Program-made: the position numbers and the translations under genes
Source of the DNA: Kribbella sindirgiensis
GTDB lineage: Bacteria; Actinomycetota; Actinomycetes; Propionibacteriales; Kribbellaceae
Assembly (NCBI RefSeq): GCF_004331435.1
Contig: NZ_SJKA01000004.1
Location: 248,001-312,000, forward strand
Direction: 5' to 3'
Length of the DNA stretch: 64,000 bases
Notes under the pieces: model-generated
Database searches by the model: none
The model's input: the letters and a program-made list of their open reading frames with translations, nothing else
What the model was told of the DNA's origin: nothing
In this document: positions 5,022 to 62,151 of the stretch, piece after piece
Layout: the number at the start of each line of letters is the position of its first letter
How positions within the stretch are numbered: position 1 is the stretch's first letter

Positions 5022-5157
5022 AGAGACGATCCTCTCCCGATGACAACGAAGGACACAACTGCTTCCCACACTACGGAACAGGTTTGAACACCCGTCAACC
5101 CGCTTGGTGTAACAGACAGGTCACGCGGCAGCGCAGGCCAGGGTGGGCCAGGGTGGA

Positions 5158-53037: not shown

Positions 53038-53681
53038 GAAGTCACCGGCGCGGTCCAGAGACCGACGATGCCGTCGATGAGACCGTCCGCCATCTCCTGC
53101 CAGGTCGCGCGGGCGGTCGGCGTCCCCTCGGCCTGAGCACGCTCGTACTCGGCGCACATCTGGACGATCAGGTGCCGCGCCATGTCACCGCGTTCCATCC
53201 GCACCGGAATCGGCAGGTCGGCCAGACACGCGTTGAGTCCGTCCAGGATCTGCCGGAGGGTCGGCGAGGTTAGTGATTCCTCGATCTGCACTTCGCGCAG
53301 CACCGGATCGTTCATCAGCTGGGCGTTGAACCGGGCCAGCCAGCTCGGGTTGCCGAGGCCGGCCATGTGGTCGGTCGCCGGCCGCACCAGGCAGGTCACC
53401 CAGTCGCGGACCTCGGTGCTGCCCTCGACCTCGGCCACCAGTTCCTTGCGTCGCTCCTCGATCGGTCCCGCGTGCTTCTGCGCGATCGCCCGGACCAGAT
53501 CGGTCTTGGTACCGAAGTGGTACCCGACCGCGGTGTTGTTGCCCTGCCCGGCCGCCTCGCTGATCTGCCGGTTCGACACCTCGTGCACACCACGCTCGGC
53601 GAACATCCGCTCCGCCGTGGTCAGGATCAGCTCGCGGGTCGCGTTCACCCGGACCGCTCGCACGTCTTTGGCCATCATCAT
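53034..53681 (-). CDS. TetR-family repressor of the P450 cluster
   Basis: 215 residues. The N-terminal HTH is ELILTTAERMFAERGVHEVSNRQISEAAGQGNNTAVGYHFGTKTDLVRAI; a helical ligand-binding domain follows. The ATG at 53681 shares a base with the upstream P450 stop (TGATG). It is cotranscribed with its targets and probably binds the palindromes at 54934-54979, so it would repress both the P450 operon and the divergent MFS exporter. Confidence 0.92.
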   Translation of the reverse strand: MMMAKDVRAVRVNATRELILTTAERMFAERGVHEVSNRQISEAAGQGNNTAVGYHFGTKTDLVRAIAQKHAGPIEERRKELVAEVEGSTEVRDWVTCLVRPATDHMAGLGNPSWLARFNAQLMNDPVLREVQIEESLTSPTLRQILDGLNACLADLPIPVRMERGDMARHLIVQMCAEYERAQAEGTPTARATWQEMADGLIDGIVGLWTAPVTS

Positions 53682-54883
53682 CACCACTTCACCGGCACTT
53701 CCCGGAGCCCGCCGACTGCGAGCCCCTCGACCGGACGTAAGTCTGCCGCCGCGACGGCCAGCTCCAGCGTCGGGAGGCGGCGCAGCAGCACCTCGAGCGT
53801 CACCTGCAACTCCAGCCGCGCGAGTGGTTGCCCGATACAGGAATGCGGACCGGCCCCGAAGGACAGGTGCACGTTCGGGCTGCGGCTCAGGTCCAGCTCC
53901 GCCGCGTCCTCGAAGGCCGCCTCGTCCCGGTTCGCCGAGCCCATGCTGCAGACCGCGGTCGTCCCGGCAGGCAGTACACCGCCGGACACCTCGACCTCCT
54001 CGGACAGGTACCGGATCATGCCGAAACCGGGATTGGCGTCGTACCTCAAGGTCTCCTCGACGGCGGTCCGGACCAGGGCCGGGTCGGCGAGCAGCGCCTC
54101 CCAGTGCCCGCGGTCGGCCAGCAGCATCGCCAGCATCTTGCCGATCATGTTGGCCGTGGTTTCGTGGCCGGCCACCAGCAGACCCATGCCGGTGGAGACG
54201 AGCATCCGGTCGGTCATCCGCTCCCCCGCGGCGTCCGTGCCGGTGATCAGCTCGCTGAGCAGGTCCGCACCCGGAGCCTCGCGCCTGGCGGCGATGTGAC
54301 CGGCCATGTAGGCGACGAACTCCGCCTGCGCGGAGTCGATCTCCGCCTGCTCGTAGCGGGTCAGGTTCAGCAGGGTGTCGGACCAGTAGGCGAACCGGTC
54401 GCGATCGGACTCCGGGACGCCGAGCAGGTCGCAGATCACCCAGACCGGCAGCGGGAATCCCAGGCTCGCCTTGAGATCGGCCGGACTGCCCTGCTTGATC
54501 ATCTCGTCGACCAGCCGGTCGGCCATCGCCTCGATTCCGGGGCGGAGCGCGATCATCCGCTTGGCCGTGAACCACTTGGTGATCCGCCGCCGCCAGCGCT
54601 GGTGCGCGGCACCGGACTGCGGCAGCGAACTCGCCATCTCACTGTTGAACACGCCACCGGATTCACTGACCCGGGCCGCATCGTCTGCGGTACGGGTGAA
54701 CCGCGGGTCGGCCAGCACCTGCTTCACGTCGTCGTACCGCGTCAGCAAGGTGGCCTGATCGCCGCTGGGCAGCCGGACGTGGGCGACCGGGCATCGCTGC
54801 CGCAGCCGCTCCCATTCCGCCGGCGGCTGGATCGCGTTCACGGGCGGGATCGGGTAGTCCACGATCTCGTCACCATCCGTCAC
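53681..54883 (-). CDS. Cytochrome P450 (operon P450 2, first gene)
   Basis: 400 residues. AGHETTANMI (I helix), EETLRY (ExxR) and FGAGPHSCIGQPLARLEL (heme loop). The GTG at 54883 follows GGAGGTGG by seven bases. As the first gene of the five-gene operon it is nearest the operators. It differs clearly from the second P450 and is probably adapted to a different oxidation of the same compound or to a related substrate (inference). Confidence 0.93.
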   Translation of the reverse strand: MTDGDEIVDYPIPPVNAIQPPAEWERLRQRCPVAHVRLPSGDQATLLTRYDDVKQVLADPRFTRTADDAARVSESGGVFNSEMASSLPQSGAAHQRWRRRITKWFTAKRMIALRPGIEAMADRLVDEMIKQGSPADLKASLGFPLPVWVICDLLGVPESDRDRFAYWSDTLLNLTRYEQAEIDSAQAEFVAYMAGHIAARREAPGADLLSELITGTDAAGERMTDRMLVSTGMGLLVAGHETTANMIGKMLAMLLADRGHWEALLADPALVRTAVEETLRYDANPGFGMIRYLSEEVEVSGGVLPAGTTAVCSMGSANRDEAAFEDAAELDLSRSPNVHLSFGAGPHSCIGQPLARLELQVTLEVLLRRLPTLELAVAAADLRPVEGLAVGGLREVPVKW

Positions 54884-57148: not shown

Positions 57149-57724
57149 ATGCCGAACAAGGTCCCCGACTACGAACTCGCGGACACCGTCGAGCTGACCA
57201 CCGCGGAGCAGGTGCGGGCGATCAGCGATCCGCTCCGGACGACGATTCTCGGGCTGCTCCACGAACGGGCGGCGACGGTGACGGAGCTGGCCACCGCGGT
57301 CGGGCGGCCGAAGAGCACGGTCGCGCACCACGTGAAGGTGCTCGCCGACGCCGGCATCCTGCAGGTGGTCCGGACCCGGCGGGTGCGGGCGATCGAGGAA
57401 CGGTTCTACGGGCGCGCCGCGCGGATGTTCTTCGTCGGCCTCGGCCGGCAGGGCGACCACGGGCAGCTGCCCCACGATTTCAACGATTTCGAGGTCGCGG
57501 CCGAGGAGTCGAAACCGGCGTACGACGCGGGGCAGATGCGCTCGTTCATCCGGCACGCCCGCATTCCCGAGGAGCGGGCCGCCGAGTTCTGGCAGCAGGT
57601 CGACGCACTGATCCACACCTTCGACCAGCTCCCCCGCGCCGGCGACACGACGTACGGCTTCACGGTCGGCCTCTACCCGATCGGCGACTACCCGACGCTG
57701 CCACCGGCCGAAGAGGGTGTCTGA
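57149..57724 (+). CDS. ArsR-type winged-HTH regulator
   Basis: 191 residues. HTH: EQVRAISDPLRTTILGLLHERAATVTELATAVGRPKSTVAHHVKVLADAGIL. There is no metal-binding Cys motif, so it probably senses something other than metals. The C-terminal ~100 residues are helical. Its 3' end overlaps the convergent MarR gene by 37 bases. TCGAAC occurs twice in the upstream gap, too little to call an operator. Confidence 0.87.
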   Translation: MPNKVPDYELADTVELTTAEQVRAISDPLRTTILGLLHERAATVTELATAVGRPKSTVAHHVKVLADAGILQVVRTRRVRAIEERFYGRAARMFFVGLGRQGDHGQLPHDFNDFEVAAEESKPAYDAGQMRSFIRHARIPEERAAEFWQQVDALIHTFDQLPRAGDTTYGFTVGLYPIGDYPTLPPAEEGV

Positions 57725-58188
57725 TCCTCCTCTGACGCAAGCCGGTCGAGGACGCCGACCAGCCGGTCGAGTACGTCGCGTGCGACGGCGTACTCCTCCT
57801 CCCCGAACTCCTCGGCGAAGCGGCGCTCCAGCTCGGTCAGATGCCCGAAGCCGTCGCCGGCCACGGCCAGTCCGCGCTCGGAGTACGTCACCACCTTGGC
57901 CCGGCCGTCCTTCGGGTCGGACCGCATCTCCAGCAGATCGAGGGCGACCATGTCGCGGATCACCTCACCCATCGACTGGCGGGTGATCCCGGCCCGGGCG
58001 GCCATGTCGGCGGCTCGGGCGCCGTCGGAAGGCAGAAAGCCGAAGACCGAGTTGTGGGCCATCTTCACCTCGGTGTGCCCGTCGGCATGGGCACGGCGGA
58101 CCATGTCGGACTGCAGCGCGCGGTTGGCGCGCTCGACCAGCGCGATCAGCGGCTTCCGATCGAGACGTGGCACCTGAGGCCTTGACAT
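57688..58188 (-). CDS. MarR-family regulator, divergent from the glutathione-like cassette
   Basis: 166 residues. Winged HTH with SVFGFLPSDGARAADMAARAGITRQSMGEVIRDMVALDLLEMRSDPKDGRAKVVTYSERG. It carries the conserved DxRAK wing. The ATG at 58188 faces the glutamate-cysteine-ligase-like gene across 59 bases containing a compound inverted repeat, so it probably represses both and is released by an electrophile or phenolic ligand (inference). Confidence 0.9.
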   Translation of the reverse strand: MSRPQVPRLDRKPLIALVERANRALQSDMVRRAHADGHTEVKMAHNSVFGFLPSDGARAADMAARAGITRQSMGEVIRDMVALDLLEMRSDPKDGRAKVVTYSERGLAVAGDGFGHLTELERRFAEEFGEEEYAVARDVLDRLVGVLDRLASEEDQTPSSAGGSVG

Positions 58189-58191
58189 GTC

Positions 58192-58229
58192 GTAAGGATA
58201 CCTTCCAATATTTCGACAGGAAGCCTTAC
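58192..58229. promoter_or_regulatory. Compound inverted repeat, probable MarR operator
   Basis: GTAAGG (58192-58197) pairs with CCTTAC (58224-58229) and CTTCC (58202-58206) with GGAAG (58219-58223). AAGGATACCTT at 58194-58204 is also a palindrome on its own. The repeat fills the gap between the MarR and ligase starts. Confidence 0.7.
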
Positions 58230-58247
58230 AGTATCAGGGAGGGTCCG

Positions 58248-59132
58248 ATGGAGGCCAGGGAGCTGCACCCGGTGGTGGCCGACCTGTTCGCGCGGGGGCG
58301 GCGGACGGTCCGGGTCGCGATCGAGCAGGAGTACGTCGTCGCCGCGGCCGATGGGAGCGTGGTGCCGATCGAGGAACTGCGGCGGGCGGCGGAGGGGTCG
58401 CCCGCGGCGCCGCACCTCAGCTTCGAACCCGGCGGACAGCTCGAACTGAGCCTGCCGCCGTCGCACGATCCGCTCGGCGACCTGCGTTCGCTGACGGCCG
58501 ACCTCCGGCGCCGGCTGGGCGGGATCACGCTGCGGGCGGTCCCGGTCGACCCGCGGCCGGACGTGCCGCTGCAGCTGACCTCGGCGCGGTACGTCGCGAT
58601 GCAACGGCACTTCGACCGCATCGGGCCGGCCGGTCGACGGATGATGCGCCGTACCGCGTCCACTCAGATCTGCCTGGACTGGTGGCCGGGGCGGGCCGGC
58701 ATCGAGCAGTGGCGGGTACTGAACCTCGCCGGTCCGTTCCTCGCGGCCCGCTTCAATCGCAGCGACCGGCTCGCGACCTGGCTGGCGGTCGACCCGGCAC
58801 GGACCGCCTTCGACGACAGCCTGCTGCGCGATGAGGACCCGGTCGCGTCGTACGCCGCCTTCGCCGCGGCCGCGACCGTCTTCGTCGACGGGCCGGTCGG
58901 GCACCTGAGCACGCTGTTCCCACCCGTCCGCCCGCGCGGGACGTACCTCGAGGTGCGTTTCCTCGACGCGCTTGAACCGGACGCAGTAGAGCGAGCGGTC
59001 GCCGTACTCGAGCAGCTCATGTACGACGACGTACGCCGGCGCGACGTACTGCGGGCGCTCGAAGGGTCTCGTTTGGCAGAGCTGTGGCGCGCGGCGGCAG
59101 TCGGCGCACTTGATCAGGAGATGGCGGCATGA
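58248..59132 (+). CDS. Glutamate-cysteine ligase family protein (GCS2/EgtA-like)
   Basis: 294 residues, ATG with GGGAGGG six bases upstream. The GCS2 signature is VRVAIEQEYVV near the start, then LSFEPGGQLELSLPP (the E-P-G-G-Q-xE substrate motif), RRMMRRTASTQICLDWWPG and LNLAGPFLAARFNRS, and a late YLEVRFLDAL. Such enzymes join Glu and Cys by a gamma bond for glutathione or ergothioneine. It is shorter than mycobacterial EgtA (about 430). It overlaps the glutathione-synthase-like gene by four bases. Confidence 0.85.
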   Translation: MEARELHPVVADLFARGRRTVRVAIEQEYVVAAADGSVVPIEELRRAAEGSPAAPHLSFEPGGQLELSLPPSHDPLGDLRSLTADLRRRLGGITLRAVPVDPRPDVPLQLTSARYVAMQRHFDRIGPAGRRMMRRTASTQICLDWWPGRAGIEQWRVLNLAGPFLAARFNRSDRLATWLAVDPARTAFDDSLLRDEDPVASYAAFAAAATVFVDGPVGHLSTLFPPVRPRGTYLEVRFLDALEPDAVERAVAVLEQLMYDDVRRRDVLRALEGSRLAELWRAAAVGALDQEMAA

Positions 59133-60088
59133 GCGGCGTTCTGTTCGTCACCGATCCCCTGGTTGGATTGCAGGGCGAGATCGACGCCAGCGTGGGGTTG
59201 ATGGGTGCGACGCAGGATCTGGGACTCGACGTCTGGTGCTGCGGTCCGGAAGAGCTCGCGGTCGTCGACGGACGGGTGTGCGCGCACGCCCGCCGGATCC
59301 GGCTGCGTCCGCGGGTCGCCAGTGACGATCATCGGTGGATCGTCGACCCGACGTGGTGGGACGAGCTCGGTACCGCGGTCGTCGACGTCGCGTCGTTCGA
59401 GGTGGTGCACCTGCGGATCGATCCGCCCGTCGACGCGCGGTACCTGCACACGACATACCTGCTCGACCTCGTCGAACAAGCCGGTACGCGGGTGATCAAC
59501 CGGCCGGAGGGGATCCGGGCGATGCACGAGAAGCTCGTCGCGCTGCAGTTCCCCGAGCTGTGCCCGCCGACGTACGTCGGTGCTGATCCGCAAGCGCTGC
59601 GGTCGTTCGTGCGGAGGGTGGGCACGGCGGTCGTGAAGCCGGTCGACGGGTTCGCGGGGATCGGCGTCTGGATCGTGCGGGACGACCGGAGCGCGATCGC
59701 GTTGCTGGAGTCGGCCACGCACGGCGGGCGCCGGCACGTGATCGCCCAGCAGTTCCTGCCGACAGTTGCACAGGGCAACAAGCGGCTGTTCCTGCTGGAC
59801 GGCGAGATCGTCGGCGCGGTCCTGCGGCGCCCGGCCGCCGACGACTTCCGGATCGGGCCGCCGGTCGCGCCGGCCGACATCGACGACCACGACCGCGCGA
59901 TCGTCGGCGCCCTCGGACCGGTGCTGCGCGAGCACGGCCTGGTCATCGCCGGTCTCGACGTGATCGACGGCCGGCTGATCGAGGTCAACGTCACCTGTCC
60001 CGGCGGCATGCACAAGACCGACGCCCTGCTCGGGACCAACCTCAGCCACACCATCGTCAGCAGTCTGTTCAAGGGAGCACTGGTATGA
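59129..60088 (+). CDS. Glutathione synthase-like ATP-grasp ligase (GshB type)
   Basis: 319 residues. GshB features in order: VVHLRIDPPVDARYLHTTYLLDLVEQAG (binding of the gamma-Glu-Cys part), TRVINRPEGIRAMHEKL, the ATP-grasp KPVDGFAGIGVW, QQFLPTVAQGNKRLFLLDGEIV, and metal site LIEVNVTCPGG. Bacterial GshB adds glycine to gamma-glutamylcysteine. The gene overlaps its neighbours by four bases on both sides (ATGA). A different amino acid in place of glycine is possible. Confidence 0.85.
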   Translation: MSGVLFVTDPLVGLQGEIDASVGLMGATQDLGLDVWCCGPEELAVVDGRVCAHARRIRLRPRVASDDHRWIVDPTWWDELGTAVVDVASFEVVHLRIDPPVDARYLHTTYLLDLVEQAGTRVINRPEGIRAMHEKLVALQFPELCPPTYVGADPQALRSFVRRVGTAVVKPVDGFAGIGVWIVRDDRSAIALLESATHGGRRHVIAQQFLPTVAQGNKRLFLLDGEIVGAVLRRPAADDFRIGPPVAPADIDDHDRAIVGALGPVLREHGLVIAGLDVIDGRLIEVNVTCPGGMHKTDALLGTNLSHTIVSSLFKGALV

Positions 60089-60477
60089 GCACGATCACCG
60101 TTGTCTGTACGGCCCTGCTGGCCATCCTGTTGTTCCTGCTCGGCGCCAACGTCACCCGGAACCGGGCGCTCCGCGGCGGCGGCAACCAGCAGCCGACCGA
60201 CCCGGCCGACCGGCTCTTGATCGCGGTCCGCGCGCACGGCAACGCCGCCGAGTACATCCCGACGATGATCGTGCTGCTGCTGGTCTGCTCGGCGCTGTCC
60301 GACAGCCGGCTGATCGACGTCCTCGCCGTCGCGGCCGTCGTCGTCCGGTTCACGCACGCGATCGGCATGCTGCGGTCCGCTACGCTCGCCGCGCACGGAC
60401 CGCTCCGCGATATCGGTGCCCTGGGCACCTATCTTGTCGGGATCGCGCTCGGCGTCACCGCGATCGTGACGATCTGA
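60085..60477 (+). CDS. MAPEG-family membrane protein
   Basis: 130 residues with four helices. The family motif is LIAVRAHGNAAEYIP (RAxxN-x2-E-x2-P), which forms the glutathione-binding region of microsomal transferases and of bacterial YecN-like proteins. It follows the two ligase genes with ATGA overlap, so it probably uses their thiol product, for example in conjugation or peroxide reduction. Its 3' end overlaps the araC-type gene by 23 bases in antisense. Confidence 0.87.
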   Translation: MSTITVVCTALLAILLFLLGANVTRNRALRGGGNQQPTDPADRLLIAVRAHGNAAEYIPTMIVLLLVCSALSDSRLIDVLAVAAVVVRFTHAIGMLRSATLAAHGPLRDIGALGTYLVGIALGVTAIVTI

Positions 60478-61285
60478 AAGCGGTCGGCGTGGCGCCGGTG
60501 AGCTGGCGGAACACCCGAGCGAGGTGCTGGCTGGAGCTGAAGCCGAGGCTCAGCGCAAGCGCGGTGACGGTCACGTCGCTGGTCTCGAGGAGTTGGCGGG
60601 CGCGGTCGATCCGGCGTTCGTTGAGGTAGCGGTGCGGCGGCTGGCCGAGCTCACCGGCAAACAGTTCGGCCAGGTACGCCGGCGCGAGCCCGACGCGGTC
60701 CGCCAACTCCTTGAGCGTCCAGTGCTCGTGGAACTCCTGGTCGAGCAGGCGTTTCACCGTCCGTACGGCGGGATGCATCGCGAGCTGCGGTACGGCGGCC
60801 GGCGCCAGCGACCGGGAGAACGCGAGCACCAAATGGTCCACCGCGAGCGCCAGCCCCGTCTCGGCGTACTCGTACCGCGTGGTCAGCTCCCGGACCAACT
60901 GCGCGAACGCGTACGTGAGCTCGCCGGCCTCTCGATGGACGACGGTCCGCGGCATCCTGAGTCCCGGGTGGCGCGCGCCGACCACCTCCAGATCGACCGC
61001 GGCGAAATAGAAGTGGTGATTGCCGGATCGACCCGCGAGGTGGTGGGTGACTCCGGGCGGTACGGCGAACAGGTGCCCTGGACGCAGTGCGTAGCTCTCG
61101 CCGCCGGCGACCCAGTGCGTGGTGCCGTGCTGCTGCAGGTAGATCTCCCACACCGGGTGGTCGTGCGGCTCGATCAGGAACTGCTCTGGCACCCACTGCT
61201 CGCCGGCGTGCAGCAGGCCGCTGCCCGGCGCGAATCCGTCCGCGTGGAAGCCGGCGCGCAGGCCGCTGGGCCGATGGAGGGACAC
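60455..61285 (-). CDS. AraC-family regulator with cupin sensor
   Basis: 276 residues from the GTG at 61285. An N-terminal AraC cupin (IEPHDHPVWEIYLQQHGTTHWVAGGE, PGHLFAVPPGVTHHL) and a C-terminal double HTH (LDQEFHEHWTLKELADRVGLAPAYLAELF and LNERRIDRARQLLETSDVTVTALALSLGFSSSQHLARVF). It faces the PhyH gene across 65 bases, so a local target is likely. Confidence 0.9.
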   Translation of the reverse strand: MSLHRPSGLRAGFHADGFAPGSGLLHAGEQWVPEQFLIEPHDHPVWEIYLQQHGTTHWVAGGESYALRPGHLFAVPPGVTHHLAGRSGNHHFYFAAVDLEVVGARHPGLRMPRTVVHREAGELTYAFAQLVRELTTRYEYAETGLALAVDHLVLAFSRSLAPAAVPQLAMHPAVRTVKRLLDQEFHEHWTLKELADRVGLAPAYLAELFAGELGQPPHRYLNERRIDRARQLLETSDVTVTALALSLGFSSSQHLARVFRQLTGATPTAFRSSRSR

Positions 61286-61350
61286 CTGAAGATTGTGTCC
61301 AGTTGCCTGAACATCGGCAACGCCGCGGAGGTCGAACGATTCGTAGGTTG

Positions 61351-62151
61351 ATGGGCATGGACGCTGACGACATTGCCTTCTACCGCGAGCACGGTTACTG
61401 GATCTCACCCGTGATCGTGCCCGACGACGTACTGGATGCGGCCGAGCGCGGCATGGAACGGTTCTACGCGGACGATCACGATCGGGCGTTGCCCGACATA
61501 CCGGCGACGCGCGGCTGGCGGCCGGCGGACGGCGACGTACTGCGGAAGAACGACTACGCGTCACTCCGGGTGGACGAACTGGCCGCGCTGGTACGGCATC
61601 CGGCGATCGGCGCGACGGCCGCTGCACTGTCCGGGGCGGAGGGCATCCGCCTGTGGCACGACCAGTTGCTGTTCAAGCCGCCGGGCGGTTCGGCCACGGT
61701 CGGTTGGCACACGGACCGCCAGTACTGGCAGTCGTGCACGTCGGACGAGATGCTCACCGCGTGGGTCGGGTTCCACGACGTGGACGAGGTGAACGGCGCG
61801 GTGGGGTTCATGCCCGGCAGCCATCGCTGGTCCGTCACCGGGCTCGACTTCTTCTCGCAGGACTCCGCCGGCCTGCAGGCGTCGATCGTCGCCCAGGGCT
61901 ACGACCCCGTCCCGTTCGTCCCGCGGATGAAGCGTGGCCAGGTCAGCTTCCACCACTGCCGGACGGTGCACGGGAGCTCGGCCAACCTCTCGAACGCGCC
62001 CCGCCGATCGCTCGCGATCCACCTCCAGCCACTCGACAACCGCTGGCGCCCCGGGTCCACGCACTCCAACGATCTCCTCGCCCGCAACAACCCCGACCCC
62101 GACTACACGGACCCGGCAATCCAGCCCCAACTCTGGCCGCCACCGCATTGA
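61351..62151 (+). CDS. Phytanoyl-CoA dioxygenase (PhyH) family oxygenase
   Basis: 266 residues. A non-heme Fe(II)/2-oxoglutarate oxygenase: the facial triad is visible as H-x-D in GWHTDRQYW and the distal His in CRTVHGSSANLS, with the downstream RRSLAIHL Arg for 2-oxoglutarate. Start is ATG 61351 or 61357. It is divergent from the AraC gene. It may hydroxylate a small molecule the AraC protein senses (inference). Confidence 0.9.
   Translation: MGMDADDIAFYREHGYWISPVIVPDDVLDAAERGMERFYADDHDRALPDIPATRGWRPADGDVLRKNDYASLRVDELAALVRHPAIGATAAALSGAEGIRLWHDQLLFKPPGGSATVGWHTDRQYWQSCTSDEMLTAWVGFHDVDEVNGAVGFMPGSHRWSVTGLDFFSQDSAGLQASIVAQGYDPVPFVPRMKRGQVSFHHCRTVHGSSANLSNAPRRSLAIHLQPLDNRWRPGSTHSNDLLARNNPDPDYTDPAIQPQLWPPPH

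Follow-up and report, generated by a model that had tools for sequence, protein, structure and literature searches.

A MarR-linked cassette of a short GCS2 ligase, a loop-variant GshB and a MAPEG protein in Kribbella: a probable gamma-Glu-Cys-X pathway

The chromosome of Kribbella sindirgiensis (genome size 8.9 Mb) carries a cassette in which three intact open reading frames encode, in order on the plus strand, a short glutamate-cysteine ligase of the GCS2 family, a GshB-like ATP-grasp ligase with a shortened active-site loop, and a MAPEG-family membrane protein, with a MarR-family regulator gene oriented divergently from them. We consider it probable (roughly 0.7), from comparisons at the level of sequence, that the cassette is a locally regulated pathway that would make gamma-Glu-Cys-X, X being glycine or another acceptor, for use by the MAPEG protein as a transferase. 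Glutathione is rare in Actinobacteria and has been treated there as a catabolic accessory (PMC8552685). Our literature search found no paper on Kribbella glutathione or on this module, though an earlier mention may exist.

The locus and its putative operator

The window, that is, the whole stretch of 64,000 nucleotides that was analysed, contains the following features of the cassette.

57688–58188, minus strand: MarR-family regulator gene, divergent from the ligase genes (MarR_2, 29 bits, cut-off 27; an orthologue in the same place at 24 of 24 cassette loci)
58192–58206, no strand assigned: operator half 1, GTAAGGATACCTTCC (palindrome conserved in an intergenic alignment of 25 loci)
58215–58229, no strand assigned: operator half 2, GACAGGAAGCCTTAC, 23 bp from half 1 (intergenic alignment)
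58236–58243, plus strand: Shine-Dalgarno sequence of the GCS2 gene, AGGGAGGG (from the sequence)
58248–59132, plus strand: short GCS2-family glutamate-cysteine ligase, 294 aa (Pfam GCS2, 42 bits, cut-off 21)
59129–60088, plus strand: GshB-like ATP-grasp ligase, 319 aa (GSH-S_N, 97 bits, and GSH-S_ATP, 142; cut-offs 21 and 23)
59843–59857, plus strand: shortened active-site loop D239-F240-R241-I242-G243, replacing R-x-N-[LIM]-x-x-G-[GA] (alignments)
60085–60477, plus strand: MAPEG-family membrane protein, 130 aa, with R49-A-H51-G-N53-A-A-E56-Y and R88-x-x-H91 (Pfam MAPEG, 69 bits, cut-off 23.4)

All five domain matches (GCS2, GSH-S_N, GSH-S_ATP, MAPEG and MarR_2) exceed the curated Pfam cut-offs, and the coding frames overlap by ATGA at 59129–59132 (GCS2/GshB) and 60085–60088 (GshB/MAPEG). 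The preliminary description of this DNA had read the locus as just such an overlapping set of these three families with a local MarR partner, and on all of these points it was right; the position that it gave for the start of the cassette, 58188, is in fact where translation of the divergent MarR gene starts, and the ATG of the GCS2 gene lies at 58248.

The MarR and GCS2 genes are separated by 59 bp containing the two 15-bp palindromes, in which GTAAGG, CCTT, CAGG and CCTTAC are near-invariant across the 25 aligned loci and the spacer letters are variable. When the whole genome was scanned for GTAAGGNNNCCTTAC, the cassette site was the best match and the sole site with one mismatch; at up to two mismatches there were 54 sites as against 81 for the reversed control, which is no enrichment. 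A wider regulon for this operator was rejected, since the control had more sites and strong copies beyond the cassette were absent from the genome. An operator that is conserved at the cassette and unenriched elsewhere in the genome points to a local, dedicated switch, and this supports such a role for MarR, which would presumably bind the palindromes.

On one side, the immediate flanks that were scanned hold genes for an MFS protein, a DLH hydrolase and an ArsR-type regulator, and on the other an AraC regulator and PhyH; all were rejected as parts of the unit because they are common to close Kribbella only. The last two form a divergent pair of AraC-type regulator and PhyH dioxygenase at 60458–62151, beside the cassette in close Kribbella. 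Elsewhere in the window, a minus-strand ORF at 53681–54883 is cytochrome P450-like by its motifs, and an overlapping ORF on the same strand encodes a TetR-like regulator.

The two ligases

Both its Pfam domain and its fold place the first enzyme among GCS2 glutamate-cysteine ligases. The predicted structure (pLDDT 87) fits the plant glutamate cysteine ligase 2gwc (Z 26.6, rmsd 2.8, 290 aligned), a profile search also retrieves plant glutamate cysteine ligase, and the motifs E26xE28, FEPGGQxEL, MMRxTxSTQxCLDWW and HxxTLFxPVRPRxxYLExR are kept in the family alignment. EgtA has the same motifs and is the best NCBIfam family for the cassette enzyme (TIGR03444), but the score of 118 bits is well under the cut-off of 371; moreover, EgtA proteins are ~420 aa long, whereas the cassette GCS2 has 294 and, relative to the genome's own EgtA and the plant ligase, is without a segment of ~30 residues before HLSTLFPPVR. 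The separate EgtA of the same genome, which adjoins EgtB (445 bits, cut-off 360) on contig C22, itself falls just under the TIGR03444 cut-off with 339, so it is gene context that carries the argument here: its neighbours, GshB and MAPEG genes and not ergothioneine genes, set the cassette GCS2 apart from the ergothioneine ligase. The presence of that EgtA beside EgtB also weakens the alternative that the cassette ligases use ergothioneine precursors only.

The second enzyme matches E. coli GshB (1gsa) at E 4e-42, and its model (pLDDT 92.6) superimposes on 1gsa with a TM of 0.88. The comparison with E. coli GshB residues that the preliminary description had proposed gives a divided answer. The catalytic lysines and arginines and the Mg ligands are kept (by E. 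coli numbering K125, K160, R210, R225, R233, D273, E281 and N283), but N217 stands in place of E. coli D208 and the active-site loop is shortened, the RGNLAAGG of the E. coli loop ETRGNLAAGG being reduced to R-IG. In E. coli GshB this loop shuts over the active site and is important for catalysis; our literature searches found no usable paper on it.

The DFRIG loop, four to five residues shorter than the canonical one, is present at each of the 25 cassette loci, as it is at all 20 of the same-genus loci, and it recurs in a second group of GshBs (L069–L077 and L147) that are 44–48% identical to the window GshB. A further copy with this loop, from outside the class (L089), is either broken or badly assembled. 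The canonical R-x-N-[LIM]-x-x-G-[GA] is kept in Proteobacteria, on the Gordonia styrene plasmid, in a second Nocardioides GshB and in the PRK12458 group. All of the loop-variant GshBs tested form a single clade (100/98 support), sister to the canonical actinobacterial GshBs, within which the D-F-R-I-G and GNKR segments are strictly invariant. Every MAPEG-linked GshB has the short loop, and of the other GshBs examined only the one broken copy outside the class shares it.

Glutathione, which the preliminary description had named as the possible product beside a gamma-Glu-Cys-X variant, remains plausible, but the GshB on which this depends belongs to the loop-variant clade and falls below both glutathione synthase equivalog cut-offs (PRK05246, 261.6 vs 272; TIGR01380, 256.4 vs 299), which the canonical Nocardioides GshB exceeds with scores of 342 and 358. 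A divergent GshB with the same shortened loop (L071) passes both, and GshB function is therefore not settled by these scores on their own.

Distribution and the MAPEG partner

When named genomes were scanned with the GshB, 24 independently fetched loci were recovered from Kribbella, Nocardioides, Marmoricola, Aeromicrobium and Propionibacteriales assemblies, one of the Kribbella loci being filed as Streptomyces sp. SID13031. MarR is divergent from GCS2-GshB-MAPEG at all 24, in four genera and down to 61% GshB identity, an arrangement that is therefore more than chance and that answers the call of the preliminary description to seek the three-gene set in other genomes. The rarity that had been claimed for such genes also stands, as 16 of the 395 Actinomycetes genomes sampled class-wide have the GshB N-terminal domain, and 9 of 396 from the phylum, in line with the literature (PMC8552685). 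By contrast, the suggestion that the module had been acquired gives way to one of residence: cassette-type GshB (380 bits or more) occurs in 40 of 294 Propionibacteriales genomes, among them 27 of 38 Kribbella, and the Kribbella sequences are one clade in the tree. Recent acquisition by Kribbella was rejected on these two grounds.

The three-gene set is also found within the second, 44–48% identical group, in which gene content is looser. No MarR was found beside the divergent GshB-MAPEG genes of L069–L077, and in five of the divergent genomes (L069, L070, L071, L072 and L075) no GCS2 adjoins GshB-MAPEG; these five encode other GCS2 proteins elsewhere, and in the two of them that were scanned, L071 and L072, MAPEG is followed by a gene for an MFS_3 exporter. 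The five loci belong to actinomycete genomes mostly of 9–11 Mb. Three Nocardioides genomes (G042, G943 and G988) have a canonical GshB as well as the loop-variant cassette (L067, L143 and L144 with L068, L145 and L146), the canonical gene being divergent from an EgtA-like GCS2 in two. A pair of GCS2 and loop-variant GshB also lies on a short contig from outside Actinomycetes (L155; G708 contig C192), where it is split among several frames and is either decayed or misassembled.

The third protein has the Pfam domain above its cut-off and the R-x-x-x-N-x-x-E motif in common with the MAPEG family (microsomal GST, LTC4 synthase, mPGES-1), and we take this motif to be the glutathione-site motif of MAPEG enzymes. 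R49-x-x-x-N53-x-x-E56 and R88-x-x-H91 are kept in the MAPEG alignment, with R49, N53 and E56 invariant. At the sequence level it matched none of the solved MAPEG structures; the lone profile match was to a designed protein and looks like chance. It is the only MAPEG protein in the genome, and its linkage to the cassette is obligate among the 38 Kribbella genomes, where each of the 27 with cassette GshB has exactly one MAPEG and the 11 that lack it have none. The 395 Actinomycetes genomes hold 10 MAPEG proteins above the cut-off, every one adjoining a loop-variant GshB, and the same 10 genomes account for both; this 10/10 association is strong but represents few independent events, about five lineages only. 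Genomes of that sample with only a PRK12458-type GshB have no MAPEG. The GshB-like family is widespread in Propionibacteriales, and one PRK12458-type member with the canonical loop follows a MATCAP/DUF1704-type protein at 5081–7257 of L066 (G000 contig C13), a pair separate from the cassette.

Proposed pathway and the nature of its product

The chemistry, substrates, inducer and third residue that we infer for the cassette would be as follows. GCS2 would join glutamate and cysteine to give gamma-Glu-Cys, and the GshB-like ligase, using ATP to activate the cysteinyl carboxylate, would attach either glycine or some other small amine as the third component. The thiol product would serve the MAPEG protein, most likely in the conjugation of hydrophobic electrophiles or lipophilic toxicants at the membrane, and to this extent the detoxification theme of the preliminary description finds support. 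On its two palindromes, MarR would repress both divergent directions until an inducer, plausibly a toxicant, is present.

Genes for the thiols that usually protect such bacteria are there too: the genome encodes the mycothiol ligase MshC (636 bits, cut-off 485) and the ergothioneine pair EgtA-EgtB. A GST search with the GST_N_3 family found no such domain protein in the 38 Kribbella genomes, and nothing in this genome reaches the cut-off for the glutathione-reductase equivalog (at best 247 bits, against 556), which would leave the cassette product with a single known user and without a dedicated recycler; to judge from gene content, it seems to serve MAPEG specifically and not general redox buffering. 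The proposed pathway draws support from the family motifs of both ligases, the constant arrangement at 24 of 24 loci, the MAPEG linkage and the conserved operator. Counting against it are the two null results just given, the distant relatives that have no adjacent GCS2 but do have an MFS exporter, a MAPEG protein without a recognisable solved relative, and an association that comes down to about five lineages.

The same ligase families are found with a MarR gene in two known actinobacterial systems, namely an EgtA-like GCS2 and GshB on the isoprene plasmid of Rhodococcus sp. AD45 (gshA/gshB1/gshB2 with marR2; PMC4676930) and GCS2 and GshB in the styrene cluster of Gordonia rubripertincta CWB2 plasmid pGCWB2 (L081; PMC8552685). 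Such genes can thus serve actinobacterial glutathione-dependent catabolism (PMC4676930, PMC8552685), and it might be supposed that the cassette is likewise a recently acquired catabolic accessory. This already disfavoured idea seems to us very improbable, as no monooxygenase, soluble GST, IsoG or IsoIJ-type genes were recognised in the immediate flanks scanned, the cassette is present in 27 of 38 Kribbella genomes whose sequences are one clade, and its GshB belongs to a different clade with a different loop. The AD45 genes share their plasmid with isoG-J and monooxygenase genes and have the soluble GSTs IsoI/IsoJ as users (PMC4676930), whereas the Kribbella cassette is chromosomal and MAPEG is its only linked user. 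In pGCWB2, GCS2 (409 aa) and GshB are divergent, the GshB lies in the sister clade of the loop-variant GshBs and has the canonical loop RCNMAAG, the GSTs StyI/StyJ are soluble (PMC8552685), and MAPEG is not annotated within the stretch examined. The cassette differs from both in being chromosomal and in its operator, its short GCS2, its loop-variant GshB and its MAPEG partner.

If the cassette does encode a gamma-Glu-Cys-X pathway, what is X? Glycine has slightly better odds than a variant third component, and the pathway reading covers both. Plain glutathione, with a neutral loop deletion, glycine as acceptor and a microsomal-type GST as the user, is a serious candidate to which we would nevertheless give a little under even odds. 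Every catalytic residue checked is kept, R233 included, the nearest sister clade is that of the canonical GshBs of the Gordonia styrene plasmid and Nocardioides, the divergent L071 passes the glutathione synthase cut-offs with the same loop, and glycine is the commonest acceptor of the GshB family. It is harder to square with a loop that is shortened in all MAPEG-linked GshBs and otherwise only in the broken copy outside the class, with scores below both equivalog cut-offs, and with the three Nocardioides genomes that keep both forms of GshB, which argues for different roles. The coexistence of the two forms speaks instead for an undescribed gamma-Glu-Cys-X in which X is not glycine and is set by the remodelled loop, as do the absence of the R-x-N-x-x-x-G segment combined with N217 for E. 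coli D208, the strict invariance of D-F-R-I-G and GNKR in the clade, and the ~30-residue segment missing from the partner GCS2 as well. We advance this only tentatively, at odds well short of even, and the neighbourhood suggests no acceptor. It is improbable, finally, that no free thiol peptide is made, GCS2 and GshB acting on other carboxylate or amine substrates and the MAPEG protein having lost or changed its thiol chemistry. The GCS2 and ATP-grasp families do include members with other substrates, and the cassette GCS2 is far under its equivalog cut-off (118 vs 371 bits), but for each ligase the closest family is one of thiol synthesis, and the MAPEG protein that completes the set carries the R-x-x-x-N-x-x-E motif.

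For the gamma-Glu-Cys-X pathway that we favour, the shortened GshB loop offers a one-enzyme test for a new thiol and the conserved operator a direct handle on the inducer. Whichever third residue is used, glutathione has been treated in Actinobacteria as a rare accessory (PMC8552685), whereas the cassette is chromosomal, separately regulated and found in most Kribbella genomes, and it accounts for every above-cut-off MAPEG protein in the class-wide sample of 395. Should the product prove to be a variant thiol, it would give actinomycetes one more thiol system in addition to those of mycothiol and ergothioneine, and one that serves a single MAPEG membrane enzyme.
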